From an uncultured Flavobacteriales bacterium (GTDB lineage: Bacteria > Bacteroidota > Bacteroidia > Palsa-965), in assembly GCA_903873905.1 (NCBI GenBank), contig CAIQQJ010000040.1, forward strand, positions 1-64,000: 64,000 bases of DNA, written 5' to 3'. This document shows positions 21,660-64,000 of the stretch, piece after piece. Both the position numbers and the translations under genes were made by a program. The notes below the pieces were generated by a model. The model was given only the letters and a program-made list of their open reading frames with translations. It did no database searches and was not told where the DNA came from. Numbering within the stretch: the first letter of the stretch is position 1; the number at the start of each line of letters is the position of its first letter.

Positions 21660-22190
21660 ATGGCTAAAAAGGCTAAAAAAGGCGGTGCTGCTAAAAAAGC
21701 AAAACCCGCAAAGAAAAAAGCCGCCAAAAAAGCAGCGAAAAAAAGCCCAGTAAAAAAAGCTGGTAAAAAAGTTGCTAAGAAAAAAACGGCGCCTAAGAAA
21801 AAAGTTGCTAAGAAAGCAGCTAAGAAAAAAGTTGTAAAAAAAGCAGTTGCTAAAAAAGCTGTTGCTAAAAAGGCTGTTGCTAAAAAAGCTGCTCCTAAAA
21901 AAGCAGCGCCTGCTAAAAAAGTTGTTGCCGCTAAACCTGTCGCTAAAAAAGCAGCGCCAGTGAAAAAAGTTGTTGCAGCTAAACCTGCTCCTGCTCCGAA
22001 AGTAGTGGCTCCGAAAAAACCTGTTGTTGTTCAAAAACCTGCAGCGCCTGCACCTCCTCCCGCACACGTGGAGTTGGTTAGCGATGAAGAACCAGCAATG
22101 GATATGACAGAAGATACACCTGAAGTAAGTGATGAAACTGAAGGTCACACAAGCGACAATGACGCTCGTGGTGCATTCGATCACTTTTAA
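21660..22190 (+). CDS. Histone H1-like Lys/Ala-rich protein with an acidic tail
   Basis: 176 residues. Residues 1-~135 are almost wholly Lys, Ala, Val and Pro in KKAAKK/AKKA repeats, like bacterial H1-like (Hc1/AlgP-type) DNA-binding tails. Residues ~140-176 (VSDEEPAMDMTEDTPEVSDE) are strongly acidic. Such proteins are thought to bind DNA or RNA through unfolded basic tails; the acidic end could compete for the same basic part. It follows ileS by 11 bp, so it is likely co-transcribed. The nucleotide repeats (GCTAAAAAAG units) make slippage or copy-number change likely. Confidence 0.75.
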   Translation: MAKKAKKGGAAKKAKPAKKKAAKKAAKKSPVKKAGKKVAKKKTAPKKKVAKKAAKKKVVKKAVAKKAVAKKAVAKKAAPKKAAPAKKVVAAKPVAKKAAPVKKVVAAKPAPAPKVVAPKKPVVVQKPAAPAPPPAHVELVSDEEPAMDMTEDTPEVSDETEGHTSDNDARGAFDHF

Positions 22191-22208
22191 ATTGATTCCA
22201 AAAATAAA

Positions 22209-22919
22209 ATGGCTAAGAAAGTAAAAGCAAAAAAGGCGACTAAGGCGGCTCCAGCAAAAAAATCTGGGGCTGCCAAAAAGCCAGCAGCAAAATCCAAAAC
22301 AATAAAAAAAGCAACTAAAAAACCTGTTGCTAAAAAAACTGCGCCGAAAAAAGTTGTTGCTAAAAAAGCACCGGCAAAGAAAGTTGTTGTAGCAAAATCG
22401 CCTGCTAAAAAAGTTGTTGTAGCAAAAGCTCCTGTTAAAAAAACAGTAGCAGCTCCTACTTTAAAAGTTGCAACAGCAAAACCAATTTTGTTTACACGAC
22501 CAAATAGTGTTGTAAGCAAAAACGCGAAAGTTCTTCCAATCGACAATCGCACTCGCTATTCTGATGCAGAATTAAAAGAGTTCAAAACGCTTCTTCAAAA
22601 AAAACTCGATGAAGCCTCGCGCGATTATGAACTCCTGAAAAATACACTTTCTCACAAGGACGATCACGGAACGGATGACACCTCGCCAACTTTCAAATTA
22701 TTGGAAGATGGTTCTGATGTTCTTTCAAAAGAAGAAACCGCGCACCTTGCAGCTCGCCAGGAAAAATATATTCAGAACCTCAAAAACGCACAAATTCGTA
22801 TTGCCAATAAAACTTACGGAATTTGCCGCGTTACCGGAAAACTGATCCCAAAAGAACGTCTACGCAGTGTACCACACGCTACATTAAGCATTGACGCAAA
22901 ATTAGGCCAGAGCCGATAG
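22209..22919 (+). CDS. TraR/DksA-type protein with an H1-like N-terminal tail
   Basis: 236 residues. Residues 1-~90 are an H1-like Lys/Ala/Pro tail similar to the preceding gene's product. Residues ~105-236 are DksA-like: a coiled-coil segment (SDAELKEFKTLLQKKLDEAS), then YGICRVTGKLIPKERLRSVPHATLS. Only one of the usual zinc-ligand cysteines (GIC) remains, as I recall for Bacteroidota relatives (CRVTGKLI), so zinc binding is doubtful. DksA-type proteins bind RNA polymerase in the secondary channel; the tail could add DNA affinity. It lies 18 bp after the H1-like gene and upstream of lspA, an order common in the phylum. Confidence 0.85.
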   Translation: MAKKVKAKKATKAAPAKKSGAAKKPAAKSKTIKKATKKPVAKKTAPKKVVAKKAPAKKVVVAKSPAKKVVVAKAPVKKTVAAPTLKVATAKPILFTRPNSVVSKNAKVLPIDNRTRYSDAELKEFKTLLQKKLDEASRDYELLKNTLSHKDDHGTDDTSPTFKLLEDGSDVLSKEETAHLAARQEKYIQNLKNAQIRIANKTYGICRVTGKLIPKERLRSVPHATLSIDAKLGQSR

Positions 22920-22966: not shown

Positions 22967-23038
22967 ATTGCCGATTTTTGATTTTTTCTAATTGCCAAAA
23001 TTTTTTAATTGGCATTTGATAATCGAAAATCGGCAATT
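22967..23038. repeat. Inverted repeat covering the lspA promoter region
   Basis: ATTGCCGATTTTTGATT (22967-22983) is matched by AATCGAAAATCGGCAAT (23021-23037) with one mismatch. A second copy of the right arm (AATCCGCAATCGGCAATT) precedes the second lspA gene, so the arm was duplicated together with the gene. Confidence 0.5.
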
Positions 23039-23047
23039 GTTTTTTCC

Positions 23048-23055
23048 GATCTTTG
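23048..23055 (+). promoter_or_regulatory. -7 box of the first lspA gene
   Basis: GATCTTTG, 5 nt before the ATG at 23061. It fits TAnnTTTG except for the first base. Confidence 0.4.
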
Positions 23056-23060
23056 TTCAA

Positions 23061-23921
23061 ATGAAAAAATCACTTTTCATCATTTTCTTTGTTTTGGCCA
23101 TTGATCAATCCATCAAGATTTGGATCAAAACACACCTGTTTTTAGGCGAGCAGTATCCTGTCATGGGAAATTGGTTCAATCTGCAATTTGTGGAAAACCC
23201 TGGAATGGCATTCGGATTTCAATTGGGAGAAGGTAAAATTGGAAAATTAATTCTCAGTGTTTTCCGATTGTTGGCAGTTGCAGGAATCGGATATTATCTG
23301 TGGAAACTTTTCAAAAAGAACGTTCGTCCATTAATGGTTGTTTGTGTTGCACTGATTTTCGCAGGAGCGCTAGGAAATATTCTTGATAGTGTTTTCTACG
23401 GAAAAATTTTTGATGCCAGCCATGATTGTGATGCAAATGTTGCGCAACTATTTCCAAAAGAAGGCGGATATGCCGGCGTATTACAAGGGAAAGTGGTAGA
23501 TATGTTTTATTTCCCGCTTGTCTCCACAACGTTTCCTGAAAAATTTCCATTCTGGGGTGGAGAGGATTTTCAGTTTTTTCGTCCCGTATTCAACATTGCG
23601 GATGCTTCTGTTTCCATTGGTGTTTTTCTATTACTCATCTTTCAAAATAGACTTTTCGGAAAACAAAAACAGCGTCTTAGCCCAAGAAAAATTCTTGTAA
23701 CAAATATTTTTTTCGGCATTGTCTTCTTCCTTATTTCCGTTTTTCTTTTATTAACCTACTTCACACTATTTTCAAAAGACCATCCTTTGCCAATGAGTAA
23801 AGTGGGAATTGTAATTGGGCTTTCAGCGGCTCTTGGTTTGGGAATGTTTGACTTGCTTCGTCGGTGGCCAAAATTCGAGCCTAATGTTGAAACCATTCCT
23901 GCAGCAGCCGATGAAAATTGA
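23061..23921 (+). CDS. lspA: Lipoprotein signal peptidase (signal peptidase II), copy 1
   Basis: Inner-membrane aspartyl protease that cleaves the signal peptide of prolipoproteins at the lipidated cysteine. 286 residues. Starts MKKSLFIIFFVLAIDQSIKIW; the catalytic motifs are ALGNILDSVFYG (first Asp) and VFNIADASVSIG (second Asp). VENPGMAFG is a further family signature. The usual enzyme ends near residue 210; here ~75 more residues carry two extra hydrophobic segments (VTNIFFGIVFFLISVFLLLTYF, VGIVIGLSAALGLGMFDLL). A near-twin follows 70 bp downstream. Many lipoproteins in this window are possible substrates. The start at 23061 fits the promoter box; the upstream ATG lies in the repeat. Confidence 0.95.
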   Translation: MKKSLFIIFFVLAIDQSIKIWIKTHLFLGEQYPVMGNWFNLQFVENPGMAFGFQLGEGKIGKLILSVFRLLAVAGIGYYLWKLFKKNVRPLMVVCVALIFAGALGNILDSVFYGKIFDASHDCDANVAQLFPKEGGYAGVLQGKVVDMFYFPLVSTTFPEKFPFWGGEDFQFFRPVFNIADASVSIGVFLLLIFQNRLFGKQKQRLSPRKILVTNIFFGIVFFLISVFLLLTYFTLFSKDHPLPMSKVGIVIGLSAALGLGMFDLLRRWPKFEPNVETIPAAADEN

Positions 23922-23978
23922 TCCTGCCAAATTTTATTAATTGGCTTTTGACAATCCGCAATCGGCAATTATTTTCCG

Positions 23979-23986
23979 CATCTTTG
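23979..23986 (+). promoter_or_regulatory. -7 box of the second lspA gene
   Basis: CATCTTTG, 5 nt before the ATG at 23992. Same layout as the first copy, so each gene may have its own promoter. Confidence 0.4.
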
Positions 23987-23991
23987 TGCCA

Positions 23992-24894
23992 ATGAAAAAA
24001 TCGCTATTCATTATTTTCTTTGTTTTGATAATAGATCAAACGATCAAGATCTGGATCAAAACACACATGTACTTGGGAGAGCATTATAAAGTTACGGGCA
24101 GTTGGTTTTACCTACACTTTGTGGAAAACCCAGGAATGGCTTTCGGAATTCAATTGGGCGATGGTGAATTGGGAAAATTGGCACTAAGTCTTTTTCGCTT
24201 GGTGGCGGTTGCGGGAATTGGATATTATCTATGGACGCTTTTCAAAAAGAATGTTCGACCACTACTCATTGTTTGTGTGGCATTAATTTTCGCTGGTGCG
24301 CTTGGAAATATTTTAGACAGTGTTTTCTACGGAAAAATTTTTAATACCAGTGATGCGTGGGAGCAAAACGTTGCACAAATGTTTCCAAAAGAAGGTGGCT
24401 ACGCTGGATTTTTACATGGACAAGTGGTCGACATGTTTTATTTTCCCGTTATTTCAGGAACATTTCCTGAGAAACTTCCATTCTGGGGTGGAGAAGATTT
24501 TCAATTCTTCCGTCCCGTTTTCAACATCGCGGATGCTGCCATTTCCATTGGTGTTTTTCTCCTGATTCTTTTTCAAAAAAGACTTTTTGGAAAACAACTG
24601 CAAAAGCTCAGCACAAGAAAAATTCAGACTACAAATATTTTCTTCAGTATTGTGATTTTTCTCATCTCAGTATTTCTTTTGCTTACTTATTTCTCCTTAT
24701 TCTCAAGTATTCATCCCTTGCCAATAAGTAAAATTGGAATTGTTCTCGCACTTTCAACTGCGCTTGGATTTGGAATGTTTGACATGCTTCGTCGTTGGCC
24801 AATTTTCGAACCAGGTGTGGTGGTGGAACCAGATACAGATAATTTTATTCCGGAAGAAACACCAAAACAAGATCCGCCGGAAATTATTTCTTAG
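23992..24894 (+). CDS. lspA: Lipoprotein signal peptidase, copy 2
   Basis: 300 residues, closely similar to copy 1 along its whole length, including both catalytic motifs (ALGNILDSVFYG, VFNIADAAISIG) and the extra C-terminal membrane pair. Differences cluster in the extracytoplasmic loop around residue 125 (NTSDAWEQNVAQMF against DASHDCDANVAQLF) and at the tail (EETPKQDPPEIIS). Both copies look intact, so they may differ in substrate choice or dosage. The upstream sequence is duplicated too, which points to a tandem duplication of the gene with its promoter. Confidence 0.95.
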   Translation: MKKSLFIIFFVLIIDQTIKIWIKTHMYLGEHYKVTGSWFYLHFVENPGMAFGIQLGDGELGKLALSLFRLVAVAGIGYYLWTLFKKNVRPLLIVCVALIFAGALGNILDSVFYGKIFNTSDAWEQNVAQMFPKEGGYAGFLHGQVVDMFYFPVISGTFPEKLPFWGGEDFQFFRPVFNIADAAISIGVFLLILFQKRLFGKQLQKLSTRKIQTTNIFFSIVIFLISVFLLLTYFSLFSSIHPLPISKIGIVLALSTALGFGMFDMLRRWPIFEPGVVVEPDTDNFIPEETPKQDPPEIIS

Positions 24895-27192: not shown

Positions 27193-28758
27193 ATGAAAAA
27201 AACTATACTAAGTGTCTTGTCTGTGTTGGTGATGATAACCATCATTGCAAGTTCCAACGGAAAAGCTGGCAAAACCCTTTCACCAGGAGAAACCTCCTGC
27301 ACAAGTTGCCATAGCGACTTTACCATAAATACAGGTGGAGGAAGTGTTGTTATTAACACTTCTACTATTCCTGTAGGAGGGTATATTCCTGGTACTACAT
27401 ATTCCATTTCAGTTACCGTTTCAAAAGCCGCTGCCACAATTTTTGGTTTGGGCTTGGAGGCGCTAACCTCAGCAAATGTTAACGGAGGAACACTAGCAAA
27501 CATTACTACCGCAACACAGATAAAGATGTCTGGTGTGAAAAGCAATATCGTACACAATACAGATACAGGCCTTTCAAATGCATCGCACACATTTACATTT
27601 AACTGGACAGCCCCTGCGACATCTGGTGTTGGCAGTGTTACAATGTATTGCTGCGGTCTTGCTGGGGATAACGACGGCGGAACTGCCGGCGATTACGTTT
27701 ATTCCACTTCAGTTGTTATTCCTGAAGGTGTCGCTTCCAACTCACTTACAACGGGGACAATTACAGGCAGTCCTTTCTGTTCTGGCGCAGTTGGAATAAA
27801 CGTTCCATTCACAATCAGTGGAACTTACACTGTAGGAAATATTTTCACTGCACAATTATCCAATGCTACAGGATCTTTCGCATCTCCAACAACACTTGGA
27901 ACATTGACTGGAATTGTAGCTGGTACTATTGTTACAACTACACCACTACCTGCTGTTGCAGGAACACAATACAGAATTAGAGTTGTAGGTAGTGCTCCTG
28001 TTGTAACAGGAGCTGACAATGGAACAAACCTCACCATCAATGTCACTCCAACAGTAAGTGCGAGCACATCGAATTCAGCTATTTGTGCAACAAGCGGCGC
28101 GTTACTTACAGCAGCGGGAGCAACTACATATTTATGGATGCCAGGAAACATAGCAGCAAATCCATTTACAGTTACGCCTGCAGTAACCACAACCTATACG
28201 GTGACAGGAACAACAGCAGGTTGTTCAGGAACAGCGACAACTACCATAACCGTAAATCCTCTTCCGGTCGTGGCTTTAAATCTTACAACAATCGATACTC
28301 AATGTGTCGCGTATAGTTCTATTGGTTTGGTTGGTGGTACACCTGCTGGTGGAGTTTTCAGTGGACCTGGTGTTACAGGAAACATTTTCAATCCGAATGC
28401 AGCTGGTTTGGGAACATGGACAATTACCTATACCTACTCAGACGTGAATGGATGTGCAAACACTGCAACAGGAACCATTTTTGTTGATGTTTGTGCAGGT
28501 GTACAAAATGCAGTTAACAACGAGAGCATTTCTGTTTATCCTAATCCAGTAAATGAGTTATTAAACGTGGATGCTTCTGCAACAAATGGAATCACTTCAG
28601 CAATCATCATGAATGGTCTTGGCCAGGTTGTTTACTCAAATGAAAACGTATTAGGAAAAATAACAATTGACATGTCGAATTTTGCAAATGGAATTTATTC
28701 CTTGCAATTGAAAAATGGCAATTCTGTTATCACCAAGAAAATTGTCAAACAAGACTAG
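27193..28758 (+). CDS. Choice-of-anchor V / CXXCH protein with one Ig-like repeat, T9SS type A
   Basis: 521 residues. Signal MKKTILSVLSVLVMITIIASSNGKAG. Directly after it, SPGETSCTSCHSDFTIN holds one CXXCH motif, the classical haem-c attachment motif. A Reeler-like 'choice-of-anchor V' domain follows (to ~180), then a VPFT...YRIRVVGSAP module (~195-285), one Ig-like repeat of ~70 residues (ATTYLWMPGNIAANPFTVTPAVTTTYTVTG), a terminal Ig-like domain (GGVFSGPGVTGNIFNPNAAG) and a type A sorting domain (ISVYPNPVNELLNVDAS...VITKKIVKQD). Its paralogue at 29221 differs mainly by having 13 Ig-like repeats. Whether haem is really attached is unknown. Confidence 0.88.
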   Translation: MKKTILSVLSVLVMITIIASSNGKAGKTLSPGETSCTSCHSDFTINTGGGSVVINTSTIPVGGYIPGTTYSISVTVSKAAATIFGLGLEALTSANVNGGTLANITTATQIKMSGVKSNIVHNTDTGLSNASHTFTFNWTAPATSGVGSVTMYCCGLAGDNDGGTAGDYVYSTSVVIPEGVASNSLTTGTITGSPFCSGAVGINVPFTISGTYTVGNIFTAQLSNATGSFASPTTLGTLTGIVAGTIVTTTPLPAVAGTQYRIRVVGSAPVVTGADNGTNLTINVTPTVSASTSNSAICATSGALLTAAGATTYLWMPGNIAANPFTVTPAVTTTYTVTGTTAGCSGTATTTITVNPLPVVALNLTTIDTQCVAYSSIGLVGGTPAGGVFSGPGVTGNIFNPNAAGLGTWTITYTYSDVNGCANTATGTIFVDVCAGVQNAVNNESISVYPNPVNELLNVDASATNGITSAIIMNGLGQVVYSNENVLGKITIDMSNFANGIYSLQLKNGNSVITKKIVKQD

Positions 28759-28780
28759 GTTGTATTATTTCACAATTTTT

Positions 28781-28814
28781 AAAAGCCCTGTACTTAACGT
28801 ACGGGGCTTTTTTG
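28781..28814 (+). terminator. Rho-independent terminator after the first choice-of-anchor V gene
   Basis: AAAAGCCC-T-GTAC pairs with GTAC-G-GGGCTTTT followed by T residues. A sibling terminator follows the paralogue at 33414. Confidence 0.85.
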
Positions 28815-28887
28815 TTAATACAAGAACAATAATGTTCATTTCAAAATAATCACAGAACAATCATTATTAATTTTCATTAACCCAATT

Positions 28888-28975
28888 GTGGCAAAAGGCT
28901 GCTTGTGTTGTGGCAAAGGGCTACTTGTGTTGTGGCAAAGGGCCGCCTGTGTTGTGGCAAAGGACTGCTTGTGTT
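28888..28975 (+). repeat. Four tandem 22-bp repeats
   Basis: GTGGCAAAGGGCTACTTGTGTT and three close variants run head to tail. No matching copy is seen elsewhere in the window. The surrounding 28815-29220 gap holds no gene; the only other recognisable item is the 18-bp word at 29002-29019 shared with the upstream region of the 27193 gene. Confidence 0.8.
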
Positions 28976-29220
28976 GTGATTTTGGTCATTTGGCTGTTTT
29001 GAAAATAGCCAAAACTTTGAAAGTGTTGTTTATGCCATCGCCTTCTATAAAAGCTTGCTCCAAAAAAACCAAAATCCTTTTTGAAAATAGTCTACTAAAT
29101 TGAAAAAAATCAAAAACCTAAATCTCGAATTTGAAAAAACTGCTTTGTGTGAGCGTGTCTTCTTTTAAAAATTGTTTGCCGAAAATTAAATTCAAAAACT
29201 AACCTCAAAATTTAATTATT

Positions 29221-32200
29221 ATGAAAAAAACTATCCTTAGCGTACTCTCTGTTTTGGTGATGATAATCATCATAGCAAGCGCCAATGGAAGGGCGGGCAA
29301 AACCCTTTCACCAGGGGAAACCTCCTGTACAAGTTGCCATGGCGACTATACTATCAATACTGGTGGCGGAAGTGTGGTTATTAATTCTTCTACTATTCCA
29401 GTTGTAGGATACACTCCAGGCACAACCTATTCCATTTCTGTAACAGTAGCAAGAACCGGCTCAACCATTTTTGGCTTGGGTTTAGAGGCGCTCACTTCAG
29501 CGAATGTGAATGGCGGTACGTTAGCAAACATCACTACCGCAACCCAGATAAAGTTATCTGGTGTGAAAAGCAATATTGTACATAATACAAATACGGGCCT
29601 AGGAACAGGAACTAAGACATTTACATTTAATTGGACAGCTCCTGTTGCTTCGGGTGTTGGTAACATTACAATGTATTGCTGTGGTCTTGCTGGTAATAAT
29701 GATAATGGCACTGGTCTAGATTATGTTTATTCCACTTCAGTTATCATTCCTGAAGCTCCTGCAGCTTCCACGTCTCTTGCCACTGGGGCAATTACAGGAA
29801 GTCCTTTCTGTTCTGGTTCAGTTGGAATAAATGTTCCATTTACAGCCACTGGAACATTTGTTTCAGGAAATATTTTTACGGCCCAATTATCCAACGCTAC
29901 AGGTTCTTTCGCTGCACCAACATCTCTTGGAACACTTACAGGATTAGTTTCAGGTACAATTGTTACAACAACACCACTTCCAGCACTTGCAGGATCGCTA
30001 TACAGAATAAGGGTAGTAGGAAGTAATCCTGTGACAACAGGAACAGACAATGGAACTAACCTCACCATCAATGTTGCACCAACAGTAACTGTTAGCGCTT
30101 CTGCTGCAACAGTTTGTGCTGGTGGAAGCACTACACTTACAGCAGCTGGTGCTACTACTTATGCGTGGATGCCGGGAAGCTTAACGGGAACTTCCGTTAC
30201 GGTCACTCCAGCAACAACAACAACCTATACGGTTACTGGGACAACTGGAACTTGTACTGGAATATCAACACAATTGATTACGGTAACACCAACACCAACA
30301 GTAACCGCTACCGCTTCTGCGGCAACTATTTGTGCAGGGGGAAGCACTACGATCACTGCAGCTGGAGCTACTACTTATGCGTGGATGCCGGGAAGTTTAA
30401 CGGGAACTTCCGTTACACTTACTCCTGCAACTACAACAACCTATACGGTTACAGGGACAACTTCAGGGTGTACAGGTACAGCAACACAATTGATTACCGT
30501 TACGCCTACTCCAACTGTTACCACAAGTGTAACTGCTGCAACTATTTGTGCAGGGGGAAGTACCACAATCACTGCAGCTGGCGCTACTACTTATGCGTGG
30601 ATGCCCGGTAGTTTAACGGGTACTTCTGTTACCGTTACTCCCGCAACAACAACAACCTATACGGTTACAGGTACAACTTCAGGATGCACAGGCACAACAA
30701 CACGATTGATTACCGTTACACCTTCGCCTACAGTTACTGTCAGCGCATCGGCAGCAACAGTTTGTGCTGGCGGAAGCACCACCCTTACTGCAGCTGGCGC
30801 CACTACTTATGCGTGGATGCCGGGCAGCTTAACGGGTACTTCCGTTACAGTCACTCCCGCAACCACAACAACCTATACGGTTACAGGGACAAGTGGAACT
30901 TGTACTGGAACAGCAACACAGCTGATAACAGTAACACCAACACCAACAGTAACTGCTACCGCTTCAAGTAGTAGTATTTGCACTGGTAATAACGTCACAC
31001 TTACAGGCGCTGGGGCAACAACTTACCTTTGGATGCCCGGTAGCTTAACCGGAACTTCTGTTACTGTTACACCAGCAACTACAACAACTTATACTGTTAC
31101 AGGAACGGCAGGAACATGTACGGATTTTTCAACCGTTACCGTTATTGTTGGGGCACCTCCTACTGTTACCGCCTCTGCTTCTAGCCCTTCAATTTGCACA
31201 GGTGGCAACTCTACATTAACGGGAAATGGTGCTGCAACTTACACCTGGATGCCGGGCAGTTTAACTGGTACTTCCGTTGTAGTTACACCTGCAGCAACAA
31301 CAACCTACACTGTAACAGGAACAACGGGACCTGGATGTTTTAATACAGGAACAGTTTTAGTAACTGTCAATCCAACACCAACTGTAACCGTGAGCGCCAC
31401 CTCAACTTCATTCTGTGTTGGAAATAGCACAACACTTACTGGAGCAGGCGCAACAACTTATGCATGGATGCCTGGCAGTTTAACAGGAACATCTGTCACT
31501 GTTACACCTGTAACAACAACAACTTATACCGTTACGGGAACAACTGTTGGTTGCACAGGAACAGCTACTCAATTGATAACCGTTACGCCACCTCCAACAG
31601 TTACAGCTACTGCTTCTAGCAGTAGTATTTGTACAGGAAATAACGTCACTCTTACTGCAGCAGGAGCAACAACTTACAATTGGATGCCCGGCAGCTTAAC
31701 AGGAACTTCTGTTATTGTTACACCAGCAGTTACAACAACTTATACTGTTGTTGGAACAACTGGAACTTGCACTGGCGTTGCAACAGTTACTGTTATTGTT
31801 GGAGCTCCTCCAACAGTTACCGCTTCTGCTTCTAGTCCATCAATTTGTATTGGAGGTAATACTACATTGACAGGATCTGGCGCCACAACATATACATGGA
31901 TGCCGGGTAGCTTATCAGGGACTTCGGTTGTGGTTACTCCTGCTGTAACAACAACATATACTGTTACTGGATCAACCGGTCCTGGATGTCTTAATACAGG
32001 AACTGTTTTGGTAACCGTTACCCCAACCCCTACAGTTTCAGTCAGTGCGTCAAGTACATCCATTTGTGTTGGAAGCCCTTCAACAATTACCGCTGCTGGA
32101 GCAACAACTTACACATGGATGCCTGGTAGTTTAACTGGAACTTCCGTTACCGTGACGCCCGCTTCAACAACAACATATACCGTTACGGGAACAACCGGTA

Positions 32201-33390
32201 GTTGCACAGGAACAGCTACTCAATTGATTACTGTCACTCCTGGCCCAACCGTTTCAGTCAGTGCCACCTCAACTTCATTCTGCGAGGGAAACAGCACAAC
32301 ACTTTCTGCAACGGGAGCAACAACATATGCTTGGATGCCTGGCAGTTTAACAGGAAACTCTGTAACAGTTACCCCTGCAACAACAACAACCTATACTGTT
32401 ACCGGAACAACAGGTAGTTGCACAGGAACAGCTACTCAATTAATTACCGTTACTCCCGGCCCTACGGTTTCTGTTAGCGCTACTTCAACTTCTTTCTGCG
32501 AAGGAAATAGCACAACACTTATTGGAGCTGGCGCTACAACTTACAATTGGATGCCAGGTAATCTGACAGGATTATGGGTTTCTGTTGCACCTGCAACAAC
32601 AACCACCTATACCGTTACTGGTACAACAGGGGGTTGCACAGGAACGGCAACACAACTCATTACTGTGATTCCCGCTCCAGCAGTAACAATAAGCGCTACT
32701 GTGCCTTCGTTCTGTGAAGGAAACAGCACATTACTCATTGGGGCTGGCGCCACAACATATTCGTGGATGCCTGGAAATTTAACAGGACTTTGGGTTTCAG
32801 TTTCTCCTGTAACAACGACAACGTATACTGTTACAGGCACAAACGCACTTGGTTGCACAGGAACTTCAACTCAACTAATCACCGTAAACCCTCTGCCAAC
32901 TGTAAGTCTAAACCTTGCTGCCATTGATACACAATGTGTGGCGTTAAATTCCATTGGGTTGACTGGGGAAAGCCCAAGTGGTGGAGTTTTCAGTGGCCCT
33001 GGGGTTACAGGAAATGTTTTCAATCCATCTGCGGCAGGTGTAGGAACATGGACAATTACGTATACCTACTCTGATGTGAATGGATGTGCAAATTCTGCAA
33101 CTGGAATTATTTATGTTGATGTCTGTACAGATGTAATAAACGGAGCCAACTCCAATAACATTTCTGTATATCCTAATCCTGTGAATGAATTATTGACCGT
33201 GGACGCATCTGCAACAAACGGGATTTCATTAGTATTCATCATGAATAATCTTGGCCAGGTTGTTTACTCTAATGAAAACGTAGCAGGAAAAATAACAATT
33301 GACATGTCGAGTTTTGCAAATGGAATTTATTCCTTGCAATTGAAAAATGGCAATTCTGTTGTCACCAAGAAAATTGTCAAACAAGACTAG
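29221..33390 (+). CDS. Expanded paralogue: CXXCH / choice-of-anchor V protein with 13 Ig-like repeats, T9SS type A
   Basis: 1389 residues. Same order as the 27193 product: signal peptide, SCTSCHGDYTIN (CXXCH), choice-of-anchor V domain, YRIRVVGSNP module; then 13 Ig-like repeats of ~70-73 residues (core TTYAWMPGSLTGTSVTVTP then ATTTTYTVTG), a terminal Ig-like domain and a type A sorting domain. Nearly every repeat has one Cys near the start (TICAGG) and one near the end (GCTGT), so a disulfide per unit is possible. Units 5-7 resemble units 8-10 in order, so blocks of three were copied. The gene ends are almost identical in DNA to the paralogue. Probably a long surface stalk. Confidence 0.9.
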   Translation: MKKTILSVLSVLVMIIIIASANGRAGKTLSPGETSCTSCHGDYTINTGGGSVVINSSTIPVVGYTPGTTYSISVTVARTGSTIFGLGLEALTSANVNGGTLANITTATQIKLSGVKSNIVHNTNTGLGTGTKTFTFNWTAPVASGVGNITMYCCGLAGNNDNGTGLDYVYSTSVIIPEAPAASTSLATGAITGSPFCSGSVGINVPFTATGTFVSGNIFTAQLSNATGSFAAPTSLGTLTGLVSGTIVTTTPLPALAGSLYRIRVVGSNPVTTGTDNGTNLTINVAPTVTVSASAATVCAGGSTTLTAAGATTYAWMPGSLTGTSVTVTPATTTTYTVTGTTGTCTGISTQLITVTPTPTVTATASAATICAGGSTTITAAGATTYAWMPGSLTGTSVTLTPATTTTYTVTGTTSGCTGTATQLITVTPTPTVTTSVTAATICAGGSTTITAAGATTYAWMPGSLTGTSVTVTPATTTTYTVTGTTSGCTGTTTRLITVTPSPTVTVSASAATVCAGGSTTLTAAGATTYAWMPGSLTGTSVTVTPATTTTYTVTGTSGTCTGTATQLITVTPTPTVTATASSSSICTGNNVTLTGAGATTYLWMPGSLTGTSVTVTPATTTTYTVTGTAGTCTDFSTVTVIVGAPPTVTASASSPSICTGGNSTLTGNGAATYTWMPGSLTGTSVVVTPAATTTYTVTGTTGPGCFNTGTVLVTVNPTPTVTVSATSTSFCVGNSTTLTGAGATTYAWMPGSLTGTSVTVTPVTTTTYTVTGTTVGCTGTATQLITVTPPPTVTATASSSSICTGNNVTLTAAGATTYNWMPGSLTGTSVIVTPAVTTTYTVVGTTGTCTGVATVTVIVGAPPTVTASASSPSICIGGNTTLTGSGATTYTWMPGSLSGTSVVVTPAVTTTYTVTGSTGPGCLNTGTVLVTVTPTPTVSVSASSTSICVGSPSTITAAGATTYTWMPGSLTGTSVTVTPASTTTYTVTGTTGSCTGTATQLITVTPGPTVSVSATSTSFCEGNSTTLSATGATTYAWMPGSLTGNSVTVTPATTTTYTVTGTTGSCTGTATQLITVTPGPTVSVSATSTSFCEGNSTTLIGAGATTYNWMPGNLTGLWVSVAPATTTTYTVTGTTGGCTGTATQLITVIPAPAVTISATVPSFCEGNSTLLIGAGATTYSWMPGNLTGLWVSVSPVTTTTYTVTGTNALGCTGTSTQLITVNPLPTVSLNLAAIDTQCVALNSIGLTGESPSGGVFSGPGVTGNVFNPSAAGVGTWTITYTYSDVNGCANSATGIIYVDVCTDVINGANSNNISVYPNPVNELLTVDASATNGISLVFIMNNLGQVVYSNENVAGKITIDMSSFANGIYSLQLKNGNSVVTKKIVKQD

Positions 33391-33413
33391 GTTGTATTAT
33401 TTCACAATTACAG

Positions 33414-33448
33414 AAAAAGCCCCGTACATGAAGTATGGGGCTTTTTTT
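33414..33448 (+). terminator. Rho-independent terminator after the expanded paralogue
   Basis: AAAAAGCCCCGTAC pairs with GTATGGGGCTTTTTTT (one G-U pair) around ATGAA. Confidence 0.85.
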
Positions 33449-60792: not shown

Positions 60793-63700
60793 TTAATACG
60801 TCAGCGCTTTTATTACTGTTTCGCTTGTTGAGTTAATCAAACGAATTGTGTACAAACCTCTGCTGTAAATACTGAGATCGATTTCCTTGTTATAGGTTCC
60901 TTTGAAATTATTGAGCGATTCGCTGTAAACAATTTGCCCAAGCACATCACGAATTTCAAGAACGTAATTATCTGATTTGTTTACATGGAAATTCAATTGG
61001 AAGTGCCCATCATTTGGATTTGGCATTACACTGAATGCATCAGCATCTGTCACAGTTGCAATTCCTGTTGGATCAAGAACCGGTGTTGACTGACCAGAAC
61101 CACATCCTGCAATATCATAAACTTCAACTGTGTATGAACCAAGTCCGGTTGCAGTGTAAGATTGGCTAGTTGCCCCTGGAATCGGAGTACCATTCAAGAA
61201 CCACTGATAGGTGTTTCCTGTAACTGTAGAAGTAAGAACAGAACCATTAACAGAAATGTTAGGTGTTGTTGGAGGAATGTCAATAGATACGGTATGTGTT
61301 GCTGTATTATAACATCCGGAAACATCTGTACCTGTTACTGTGTAGGTTGTTACAATAACAGGAGTGTCAGTGATACTCGGTGTTGTTTGACCACCCGGCT
61401 GCCAAGAATAGGTTGCTCCACCACTTGCAACTAATGTAACAGTATTGCCAGGGCAAATTAGTGTTACGCCTGTGATACTGATTGTTGGTTGGGAGTAAAC
61501 CGAAACGTATGCAGTATCAGTTCCAATACATCCATTTGCATCAGTACCAGTCAATGTGTAAGTAGTTGTTCCTGTAGGAGTATCATTGATTGTAAAACCA
61601 GTCATATTGATTGGCTGCCAAACATAGGTTGATGCTCCTGTTCCAGTTAGTGTAACTCCTGTTCCGAAACAAACCGCGTTACTTGATGCAGTTGCTGTAA
61701 CAACCGGAGGAGTATTTACAGTAACAGTAATTGTGCCTGTACCTGCACATCCTGAAACATCTGTACCTGTAACGGTATATGTTACTGTAGCAGCTGGAAT
61801 ATCATTAACACTTGAACCAGTAAGGTTGATTGGCTGCCATAAATAAGTAGCTGCTCCACTTGCAGAAAGAACAACAGAAGCTCCCTGACAAACCGAAGCA
61901 GGAGAAGCTGTTGCAATTATTGTAGGTGATGGCGCAATTGTAACGGTTACCATTGCAGTGCTTGTGCATCCCGATGGATCTGTTCCGGTAACTGTGTAAG
62001 TTGTATTTCCAATTGGTGTATCAGTTACTGGAGAACCGTTAATGTTACCCGGCATCCAGTTGTAGGTTGACGCACCACTTGCTGTAAGTGTTACTGAATT
62101 TCCGGAGCAAACCGATGCAGATGAAATTGTAGCAGTTACAGTTGGACTCGGGTTTACAGTAACAGTTACTTGAGATGTGCTGGTACATCCCAACGCATCA
62201 GTTCCGGTAACAGTGTAAGTCGTAGTTGCTATTGGAGTATCCGTAATAGGCGAACCACTGATATTTCCCGGCATCCAGTTGTAAGTTGTTGCACCAATTG
62301 CTGTCAATGTAACAGTGGCCGCCGAACAAACATTTGCGTTTGAAGTTGTAGCGGTAACCGTTGGCGTAGGGTTTACAGTGATTAATTGAGTTGCAGTTGA
62401 AGTGCAACCTACTGTGGTTCCAGTAACAGTGTAAGTAGTTGTTGCGGCAGGTGTAACAGTTACTGATGTTCCTGTCAAGCTTCCTGGCATCCACGTGTAG
62501 GTTGTGGCGCCGCTCGCAGTAAGTGTTGTGCTTGTTGCAGAACAAACTGATGTGCTTGTTGCACTAACAGTTACCGTTGGGGTAGGTGTAACTGTAATTA
62601 ATCGTGTTGCGGTTGCGGTACATCCATTAACTGCTGTTCCTGTAACGGTATATGTTGTGGTGGTGGCTGGTGTAACAGTAATGGTTGTTCCTGTTAAACT
62701 TCCAGGCATCCACGCATAGGTAGAAGCTCCTGCGCCGGTAATTGTGGTGCTGCTTCCTGCGCAAATAGTTGCGGCTGTCGTTGTTGTTGTAACAGTTGGT
62801 GAAGGGTTAACCGTAATTGTTCTTGTTGCTGTATTCGTACATCCTGCAGCATTTGTACCTGTCACTGTATAAGTGGTGGTTGCTATTGGAGAAACAGTTA
62901 CTGTTGTTCCTGACAAACTTCCAGGCATCCACGTATAAGTTACACCACCAGCTGCTGTGATTGTTGTACTGCCGCCGTTACAGATTGTAGCGCCCGTTGT
63001 TGAAGTTGTAATAGAAGGCAACGCGTTTACTGTAACTGTAACTGTTCCTGTATTTGTGCATCCAGGTCCAGTTGAACCTGTTACTGTATAGGTAGTGGTT
63101 ACTGCTGGTGTTACGGTTACTGTTGTTCCAGACAAACTACCCGGCATCCAAGTATAAGTGGCTGCTCCAATACCCGTCAACGTTGTATTACTTCCAATAC
63201 ATATGGAAGGACTCGCTGCAGTAGCTGTAACGGTAGGGGGAGCTCCAACGATAACAGTAACTGTTGCGGTACTGCTACAGCCTCCTGTTGTTCCTGTGAC
63301 TGTGAAAGTCGTTGTTGATGCGGGCGTTAATGTAACAACAGCGCCAACTAAACTTCCTGGCATCCAGAGGTAGGTTGTTGCACCTGCCCCTGTCAATGTC
63401 ACAGAATTACCAGTGCAAATACTGCTGCTTGATGCAGATGCTGTAACGGTTGGTGTTGGTGTTACTGTAATCAATCTTGTTGCTGTTGCAGTGCAACCGT
63501 TCGCTGCTGTTCCTGTTAAGGTGTAGGTTGTGGTTGTCGCAGGTGTCACTGTTACTGATGTACCTGTTAAACTTCCTGGCATCCATGCATAAGTTGTCGC
63601 GCCGCTTGCTGTTAATGTTGTGCTACCTCCTGCACAAATAGTTGTTGCGGTTGCTGCAACTGTAACGGTTGGTGATGGATTAACCGTGATTAGTCTTGTT

Positions 63701-64000
63701 GCGGTTGCATTGCAAGTACCTGTTGTGCCTGTAACTGTATAGGTTGTTGTGGTGGCTGGCGTTACGGTAACAGAAGTTCCTGTTAAGCTTCCCGGCATCC
63801 AGGTGTAGGTTGTTGCACCACTTGCTGTTAATGTTGTGCTGCTTCCTGAACAAATTGTCGTTGCTGTTGCACTAACGGTAACTGTAGGTGTTGGCGTAAC
63901 TGTAATTAATTGTGTAGCTGTTCCTGTACATCCTGCTGTTGTTCCTGTAACAGTGTATGTTGTGGTAGTCGCAGGTGTTACTGTTACTGATGTTCCTGTT
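60793..64000 (-). CDS. Giant Ig-like repeat adhesin, T9SS type A (5' end outside window)
   Basis: At least ~1068 codons; the frame is open to the right edge, so the N-terminus is missing and the first ATG in the window is not a real start. Twelve or more Ig-like repeats of ~70-73 residues can be read (ATTYTWMPGSLTGTSVTVTP, then ATTTTYTVTG), closely related to those in the 29221 product, with units near the C-terminus drifting (YLWQPINLTGSSVNDIPA). After them comes a YQWFLNGTPIPGATSQSY unit and a type A sorting domain (FSVMPNPNDGHFQLNF ... GLYTIRLINSTSETVIKALTY). Most units keep one early and one late Cys. A long, surface-displayed stalk. Its own upstream domains are unknown. Confidence 0.9.
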   Translation of the reverse strand, partial: TGTSVTVTPATTTTYTVTGTTAGCTGTATQLITVTPTPTVTVSATATTICSGSSTTLTASGATTYTWMPGSLTGTSVTVTPATTTTYTVTGTTGTCNATATRLITVNPSPTVTVAATATTICAGGSTTLTASGATTYAWMPGSLTGTSVTVTPATTTTYTLTGTAANGCTATATRLITVTPTPTVTASASSSSICTGNSVTLTGAGATTYLWMPGSLVGAVVTLTPASTTTFTVTGTTGGCSSTATVTVIVGAPPTVTATAASPSICIGSNTTLTGIGAATYTWMPGSLSGTTVTVTPAVTTTYTVTGSTGPGCTNTGTVTVTVNALPSITTSTTGATICNGGSTTITAAGGVTYTWMPGSLSGTTVTVSPIATTTYTVTGTNAAGCTNTATRTITVNPSPTVTTTTTAATICAGSSTTITGAGASTYAWMPGSLTGTTITVTPATTTTYTVTGTAVNGCTATATRLITVTPTPTVTVSATSTSVCSATSTTLTASGATTYTWMPGSLTGTSVTVTPAATTTYTVTGTTVGCTSTATQLITVNPTPTVTATTSNANVCSAATVTLTAIGATTYNWMPGNISGSPITDTPIATTTYTVTGTDALGCTSTSQVTVTVNPSPTVTATISSASVCSGNSVTLTASGASTYNWMPGNINGSPVTDTPIGNTTYTVTGTDPSGCTSTAMVTVTIAPSPTIIATASPASVCQGASVVLSASGAATYLWQPINLTGSSVNDIPAATVTYTVTGTDVSGCAGTGTITVTVNTPPVVTATASSNAVCFGTGVTLTGTGASTYVWQPINMTGFTINDTPTGTTTYTLTGTDANGCIGTDTAYVSVYSQPTISITGVTLICPGNTVTLVASGGATYSWQPGGQTTPSITDTPVIVTTYTVTGTDVSGCYNTATHTVSIDIPPTTPNISVNGSVLTSTVTGNTYQWFLNGTPIPGATSQSYTATGLGSYTVEVYDIAGCGSGQSTPVLDPTGIATVTDADAFSVMPNPNDGHFQLNFHVNKSDNYVLEIRDVLGQIVYSESLNNFKGTYNKEIDLSIYSRGLYTIRLINSTSETVIKALTY

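Follow-up and report, generated by a model that had tools for sequence, protein, structure and literature searches.

The closest described systems are the T9SS type A cargo proteins of Bacteroidota that carry Ig_7 (CHU_C-associated) repeats. The gene pair described here resembles them in its signal peptide, Ig_7 units and Por_Secre_tail, and many T9SS/Ig_7-repeat genes occur in this genome and its relatives. The pair differs from this group by a choice_anch_V head that is placed on the array and by the tandem arrangement of two genes with one versus 13 units. Both heads belong to the choice-of-anchor V proteins (NF041895), with scores well above the cut-off. Many of these homologues are about 280-310 aa long and, unlike the pair, combine a head with a sorting domain without any units; a 258-aa choice_anch_V paralogue on contig C131 lacks units as well. 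In Periscope Proteins, which have highly identical repeats and vary in length, the number of units sets the projection of the N-terminal domain (PMC8201768). Unit number would set the distance of the head in a similar way here, but the repeats are far from identical: the best unit pair shares 88% of its DNA, and an exact repeat of at least 30 nt does not occur in the array. Finally, repeat proteins can duplicate several domains at once in the middle of the array (PMC1553488). Duplication of several units at a time in mid-array appears to have taken place here as well, but part of the present array is common, in order, to a different gene and growth would therefore not have been only internal. 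The pair is a real and tidy example of a known protein kind.

The window analyzed is a 64,000-nt stretch of a Bacteroidia-like bin of 181 contigs. It contains two tandem genes with the following features:

27193-28758, plus strand: short gene, 521 aa, one unit
27298-27312, plus strand: CTSCH motif in the head of the short gene
27736-28047, plus strand: D2 domain of the short gene
28048-28263, plus strand: unit S1 of the short gene, 72 aa
28264-28503, plus strand: final domain of the short gene
28534-28755, plus strand: T9SS type A sorting domain of the short gene
29221-33390, plus strand: long gene, 1389 aa, 13 units, architecture as in the short gene
29326-29340, plus strand: CTSCH motif in the head of the long gene
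29767-30078, plus strand: D2 domain of the long gene
30079-32895, plus strand: units U1-U13 of the long gene
32896-33135, plus strand: final domain of the long gene
33166-33387, plus strand: T9SS type A sorting domain of the long gene

Both proteins follow the same domain order, i.e., a signal peptide, a choice_anch_V head with the CTSCH motif, D2, the Ig-like unit(s) of 72 or 73 aa (exactly one in the short and 13 in the long gene), a final domain and a T9SS sorting domain. A preliminary description of this DNA had proposed a paralogue pair with these unit numbers that shares its signal peptide, CXXCH segment, choice-of-anchor, final and sorting domains and even the terminator, and all of this is borne out by the unit coordinates, the profile matches and the similar hairpins behind both genes. 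The heads score 96.9 and 89.8 bits with the choice_anch_V profile (cut-off 42). For the sorting domain (TIGR04183 / PF18962) the two proteins reach 43.5 and 50.1 bits (cut-off 23) and 47.2 and 48.4 bits (cut-off 27), and Por_Secre_tail is above its cut-off in the pair. Ig_7 (PF19081) is matched by seven stretches of the long protein (32.2 versus a cut-off of 27.3). In the short protein, S1 has no Pfam match but scores 100 bits with our unit profile, which was built with that unit included. The genome also encodes SprA (SprA_N, E = 4.5e-168). On the basis of the sorting domain and SprA, the pair is T9SS type A cargo, with export predicted. The same description spoke of a T9SS adhesin; the cargo half of that term stands, while domain profile searches revealed no known adhesive domain in either protein. 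Each unit has two invariant or nearly invariant cysteines, and the units would probably form a disulfide-pinned rod; an AlphaFold2 model of two units is of low confidence (pLDDT 38).

The ends of the two genes had been called near-identical. This is true for the last 161 nt, which run through the stop codon and differ at five positions only (97% identity; permutation p < 5e-5). For the N part, identity amounts to 79.9% in nucleotides and 82.4% in amino acids, for the C part to 82.1% and 80.4%, respectively. The pooled pS of the ends outside the 3' tract is 0.48, their pN is 0.09-0.16, and the upstream regions have little in common and are mostly unalignable. The features of the 3' ends are:

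28617-28777, plus strand: gene-conversion-like tract, short copy, 156/161 nt identical to the long copy
28781-28811, plus strand: terminator-like hairpin of the short gene, from a hairpin scan
33249-33409, plus strand: gene-conversion-like tract, long copy, 156/161 nt identical to the short copy
33415-33445, plus strand: corresponding hairpin of the long gene, located by alignment (the scan lists the short-gene hairpin only)

Both 3' ends share an exact repeat of 49 nt. The pS of 0.03 within the tract, compared to about 0.5 elsewhere, points to recent gene conversion. Selection at the protein level does not explain the identity of the tract because synonymous sites are affected too.

Within the long gene, the units are 57-88% identical in DNA and can be arranged as follows:

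30079-30942, plus strand: U1-U4, one clade (DNA identity 88% for U1/U4 and 86% for U2/U3)
30943-31377, plus strand: U5-U6, first A-B dyad (VIVGAP at the end of A, TGPGC within B)
31378-31593, plus strand: U7, nearest to U11
31594-32028, plus strand: U8-U9, second A-B dyad
32029-32895, plus strand: U10-U13, a clade that also contains U7; U10 is mosaic-looking

In the unit tree, U5/U8 (82% nt) and U6/U9 (79% nt) are sister pairs, and duplication of units 5-6 as a two-unit block is well supported by these relationships. The preliminary description had extended the repeated order to units 5-7 and 8-10, in which U7/U10 as a third member of the block is uncertain. U7 is 83% identical to U11 and 74.5% to U10 at the DNA level and groups with U11-U13, while a constraint that makes U7 and U10 sisters is not rejected (AU p = 0.35). 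U10 looks mosaic, its 3' third being 84-90% identical to U7/U11 and its 5' third 60-64%. The proposal of gene duplication combined with internal block duplication is supported by the sister pairs. Deep nodes are weakly supported (e.g., UFBoot 48-57 for the node between U1-U4 and U7/U10-U13), as the units are only 72 aa long and rich in Thr. The lack of exact repeats of at least 30 nt implies that the array was not freshly expanded and is not obviously unstable. It looks like an old array and not like one that is still expanding, and copy-number change at the strain level is not predicted from its sequence.

The units of the pair belong to a much larger pool, as searching the genome with the unit profile adds 122 units, spread over 23 other open frames. 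One of these frames, 27 kb downstream of the pair, encodes a giant T9SS Ig protein (further referred to as the giant adhesin; C40:60793 to about 66450) that has unit subtypes in common with the long gene:

60793-64000 in the window, minus strand: giant adhesin, 1886 aa visible, running to the contig end
63025-63453, minus strand: units 7-8 of the giant adhesin, an A-B dyad

In the unit-pool tree, U5+U8 is sister to unit 7 of the giant adhesin (support 98/99) and U6+U9 to its unit 8 (77/97). The two members of the dyad carry simple signatures: type A ends VG[AS]x and type B contains GPGC. Among 223 units sampled from the present genome and five related ones, type A is directly followed by type B six times, namely in U5-U6, U8-U9, adhesin units 7-8 and once each in genomes G002, G005 and G006. 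All GPGC units (6/6) are preceded by an A-tail unit (unit-order permutation, p < 5e-5), a p-value that is indicative since the signatures were picked after viewing the sequences. Over the N-terminal non-repeat part of the giant adhesin, the dyad proteins of G002 (2283 aa) and G005 (2215 aa) share 68% identity with it. In G006, the dyad is found in an ORF of 728 aa that is located at the end of a contig; its C part shares 48% identity with the giant adhesin, and orthology is less certain in this case. In G007, the counterpart of the giant adhesin (62%) has a similar unit pair without both signatures. Judged from this distribution, the dyad appears to have long been a fixed part of the giant adhesin in this group. 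Homologue searches found no close homologue of the choice_anch_V pair in the genus or in the dyad-bearing related genomes, and a contig scan for orthologues of the pair gave homologues at 53% or less. In FastTree protein and DNA trees, the A units and the B units across species do not all form clean clades.

The middle of the long gene had been described as grown from one to thirteen units. A single private origin is rejected by the AU test, both for U1-U13 (p = 0.012) and for U1-U13 together with S1 (p = 0.015), and the dyad is present in another gene and in three species. The growth story should be replaced by capture or exchange of an array combined with block duplication. Ancient, unordered divergence of the units had been named as the finding that would speak against that story, and the unit phylogeny agrees with it by half: the units did diverge long ago, yet the A-B dyad is ordered.

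We therefore consider the two genes as old tandem duplicates in which the long stalk is a captured array that was block-duplicated and later diverged, and of which the 3' end was recently converted (probability roughly 70%). Their ancestor would have been a single surface protein exported by the T9SS and tandem-duplicated long ago, in which a choice-of-anchor V head of Reeler-like fold was joined through an Ig-like stalk to a C-terminal domain for sorting and anchoring. The array of the long gene would derive from a stock common to the array of the giant adhesin, as suggested by the ordered A-B dyad in both. Capture most likely occurred by recombination between Ig-unit genes. A direction from the adhesin lineage to the long gene is favoured because the dyad is conserved in other species, although the array may instead have come from a third gene outside the sample. 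The captured array would then have been lengthened by block duplication, as the unit sister pairs indicate, and have diverged, with the last 161 nt homogenised recently by gene conversion. Both proteins are presumably exported by Sec and the T9SS and fixed by the sorting domain, and in the 13-unit form the head would stand farther out from the cell than in the one-unit form, by some tens of nanometres.

The sequence of these events can be approached through synonymous divergence. The pS is 0.63-0.69 between the arrays of the giant adhesin and the long gene, 0.48 for the pair ends, 0.42 for internal array duplicates and 0.03 for the 3' tract. The array stock seems to have separated from the adhesin's array first; the pair would have split later, and internal duplication would have taken place at about that time or afterwards. 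This relative order is only indicative because pS is near saturation (0.65-0.7) and can be lowered by gene conversion; conversion between units of the array may give duplicates too young an age and obscure which event came first.

A different history, unlikely as it stands yet compatible with the capture reading, is contraction: the ancestor of the pair already had an array of multiple unit types, of which the short gene lost all but one. The apparently earlier split of the long-gene array from that of the adhesin fits this, as diverse unit types would then predate the pair split. If S1 were a direct orthologue of a retained unit, an identity near 80% would be expected, but its thirds are only 55-71% identical to U1 and U13; S1 may also be the orthologue of a unit that has since been lost. 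The same values give no support to S1 having arisen as a plain U1/U13 deletion hybrid, which was also considered. It is also possible that the long gene received its array later, after the pair split, from an unsampled source.

Growth in place from a one-unit ancestor, by repeated tandem duplication after the paralogues had split, is improbable. Block duplications are visible, the age of several internal duplications is close to that of the pair split or slightly lower (pS 0.42 versus 0.48), and S1 can be grouped with U1-U4 (AU 0.48, not rejected), with a pS of 0.49-0.52 for S1-U1 and S1-U2 that is like that of the ends. This account conflicts with the rejected single origin and with a dyad order that is common to another gene and other species. 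Moreover, S1 is 59-68% identical to the U units in DNA and 54-62% in protein, compared to 80-82% at the ends, and its pN to the U units is 0.25-0.28 versus 0.09-0.16. S1 does not look like the progenitor of the U units. Its protein may have evolved faster, since its pS is like that of the ends and its grouping with U1-U4 is not rejected.

A wrong unit count due to misassembly of this metagenome-like bin is very unlikely. The 181 contigs, other Ig arrays that break at contig ends (C7_4 and C146_1, with identical end units) and the exact 49-nt repeat that links both 3' ends would allow it, but the array has no exact repeat of at least 30 nt and both genes lie mid-contig with open frames. Least probable of all is convergence or purifying selection on generic, constrained Ig-like domains with coincidental sister pairs and order, for although all units have a conserved core (their central third is 65-92% identical, mostly near 78%, in every comparison), type A precedes type B in 6/6 cases (p < 5e-5) and the recent pairs are backed by synonymous sites.

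The head deserves separate attention. C36, C39 and H40 of the CTSCH motif are invariant in 74/74 choice_anch_V homologues, although the Cys spacing varies between 2 and 6; H121 is conserved in 91% of the 74, and most of the others have Q at this position. The predicted head model (pLDDT 93.5) matches the F-spondin Reeler domain in fold (E = 3e-6), as does the sequence profile (E = 2e-5). With its invariant C-x(2-6)-CH and conserved distal His, the head resembles a c-type haem protein and is a candidate for haem binding, in which the distal His would be the second ligand. Contig C131 (G000:C131:44001-60000, L155) carries two more genes of the choice_anch_V family, one of them with SprB repeats, in a cluster with an NrfC-like Fe-S protein, NrfD, cytochrome c, a DUF5777 barrel and a Cx4CH protein, and a cytochrome c assembly family is present in the genome. 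Genes with C-xn-CH are found in 8/76 ORFs near choice_anch_V homologues compared to 4/147 far from them, a modest difference (p = 0.024). When the exported C-xn-CH neighbours were scanned (n = 7), two (L131, L133) exceeded the cut-off for a cytochrome c family, four matched below threshold only and one did not match at all. A literature search returned no paper that links choice-of-anchor V to haem. We tentatively propose, at somewhat less than even odds, that choice-of-anchor V is a c-type haem domain with a Reeler-like fold that the T9SS displays on the outside of the cell, and that the pair presents this redox or haem-bearing head at two heights above the membrane on a stalk drawn from an exchanged pool of Ig units with a fixed dyad. 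The possible haem head may be a reason against calling the pair adhesins without a test. The invariant C-x(n)-CH and the distal His make the function of this widespread, unnamed head domain directly testable.

For the building of stalks in Bacteroidota, the pair would mean that units move between genes as ordered blocks, besides multiplying in place. This corrects the tempting reading of growth from one to thirteen, and the A-B dyad offers a marker that can be traced between genes and species.

Some further observations were made on unit arrays and on the surroundings of the pair. Units outside the dyad cluster by species in the DNA tree (G002 units 2-7, G005 units 1-6; L171, L172, L175 and the adhesin at C40:60793), which suggests within-species homogenisation of arrays. 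Identical end units at the end of contig C7 and the start of contig C146 of G000 suggest an Ig-array gene that was split by the assembly. Between the paired genes, a 22-nt unit, TTGTGGCAAAGGGCTACTTGTG, is present in four tandem copies (28886-28973). The pair is inserted between lspA and asd, which are adjacent to each other in G003 and G005. Two lspA-like genes stand in tandem at 22992-24894 (about 79% nt identity over the first 300 nt), of which the relatives examined have one at this position. At 21660-22919, a Lys/Ala-rich histone H1-like protein adjoins a DksA-like one, and both begin with similar Lys-rich sequence.
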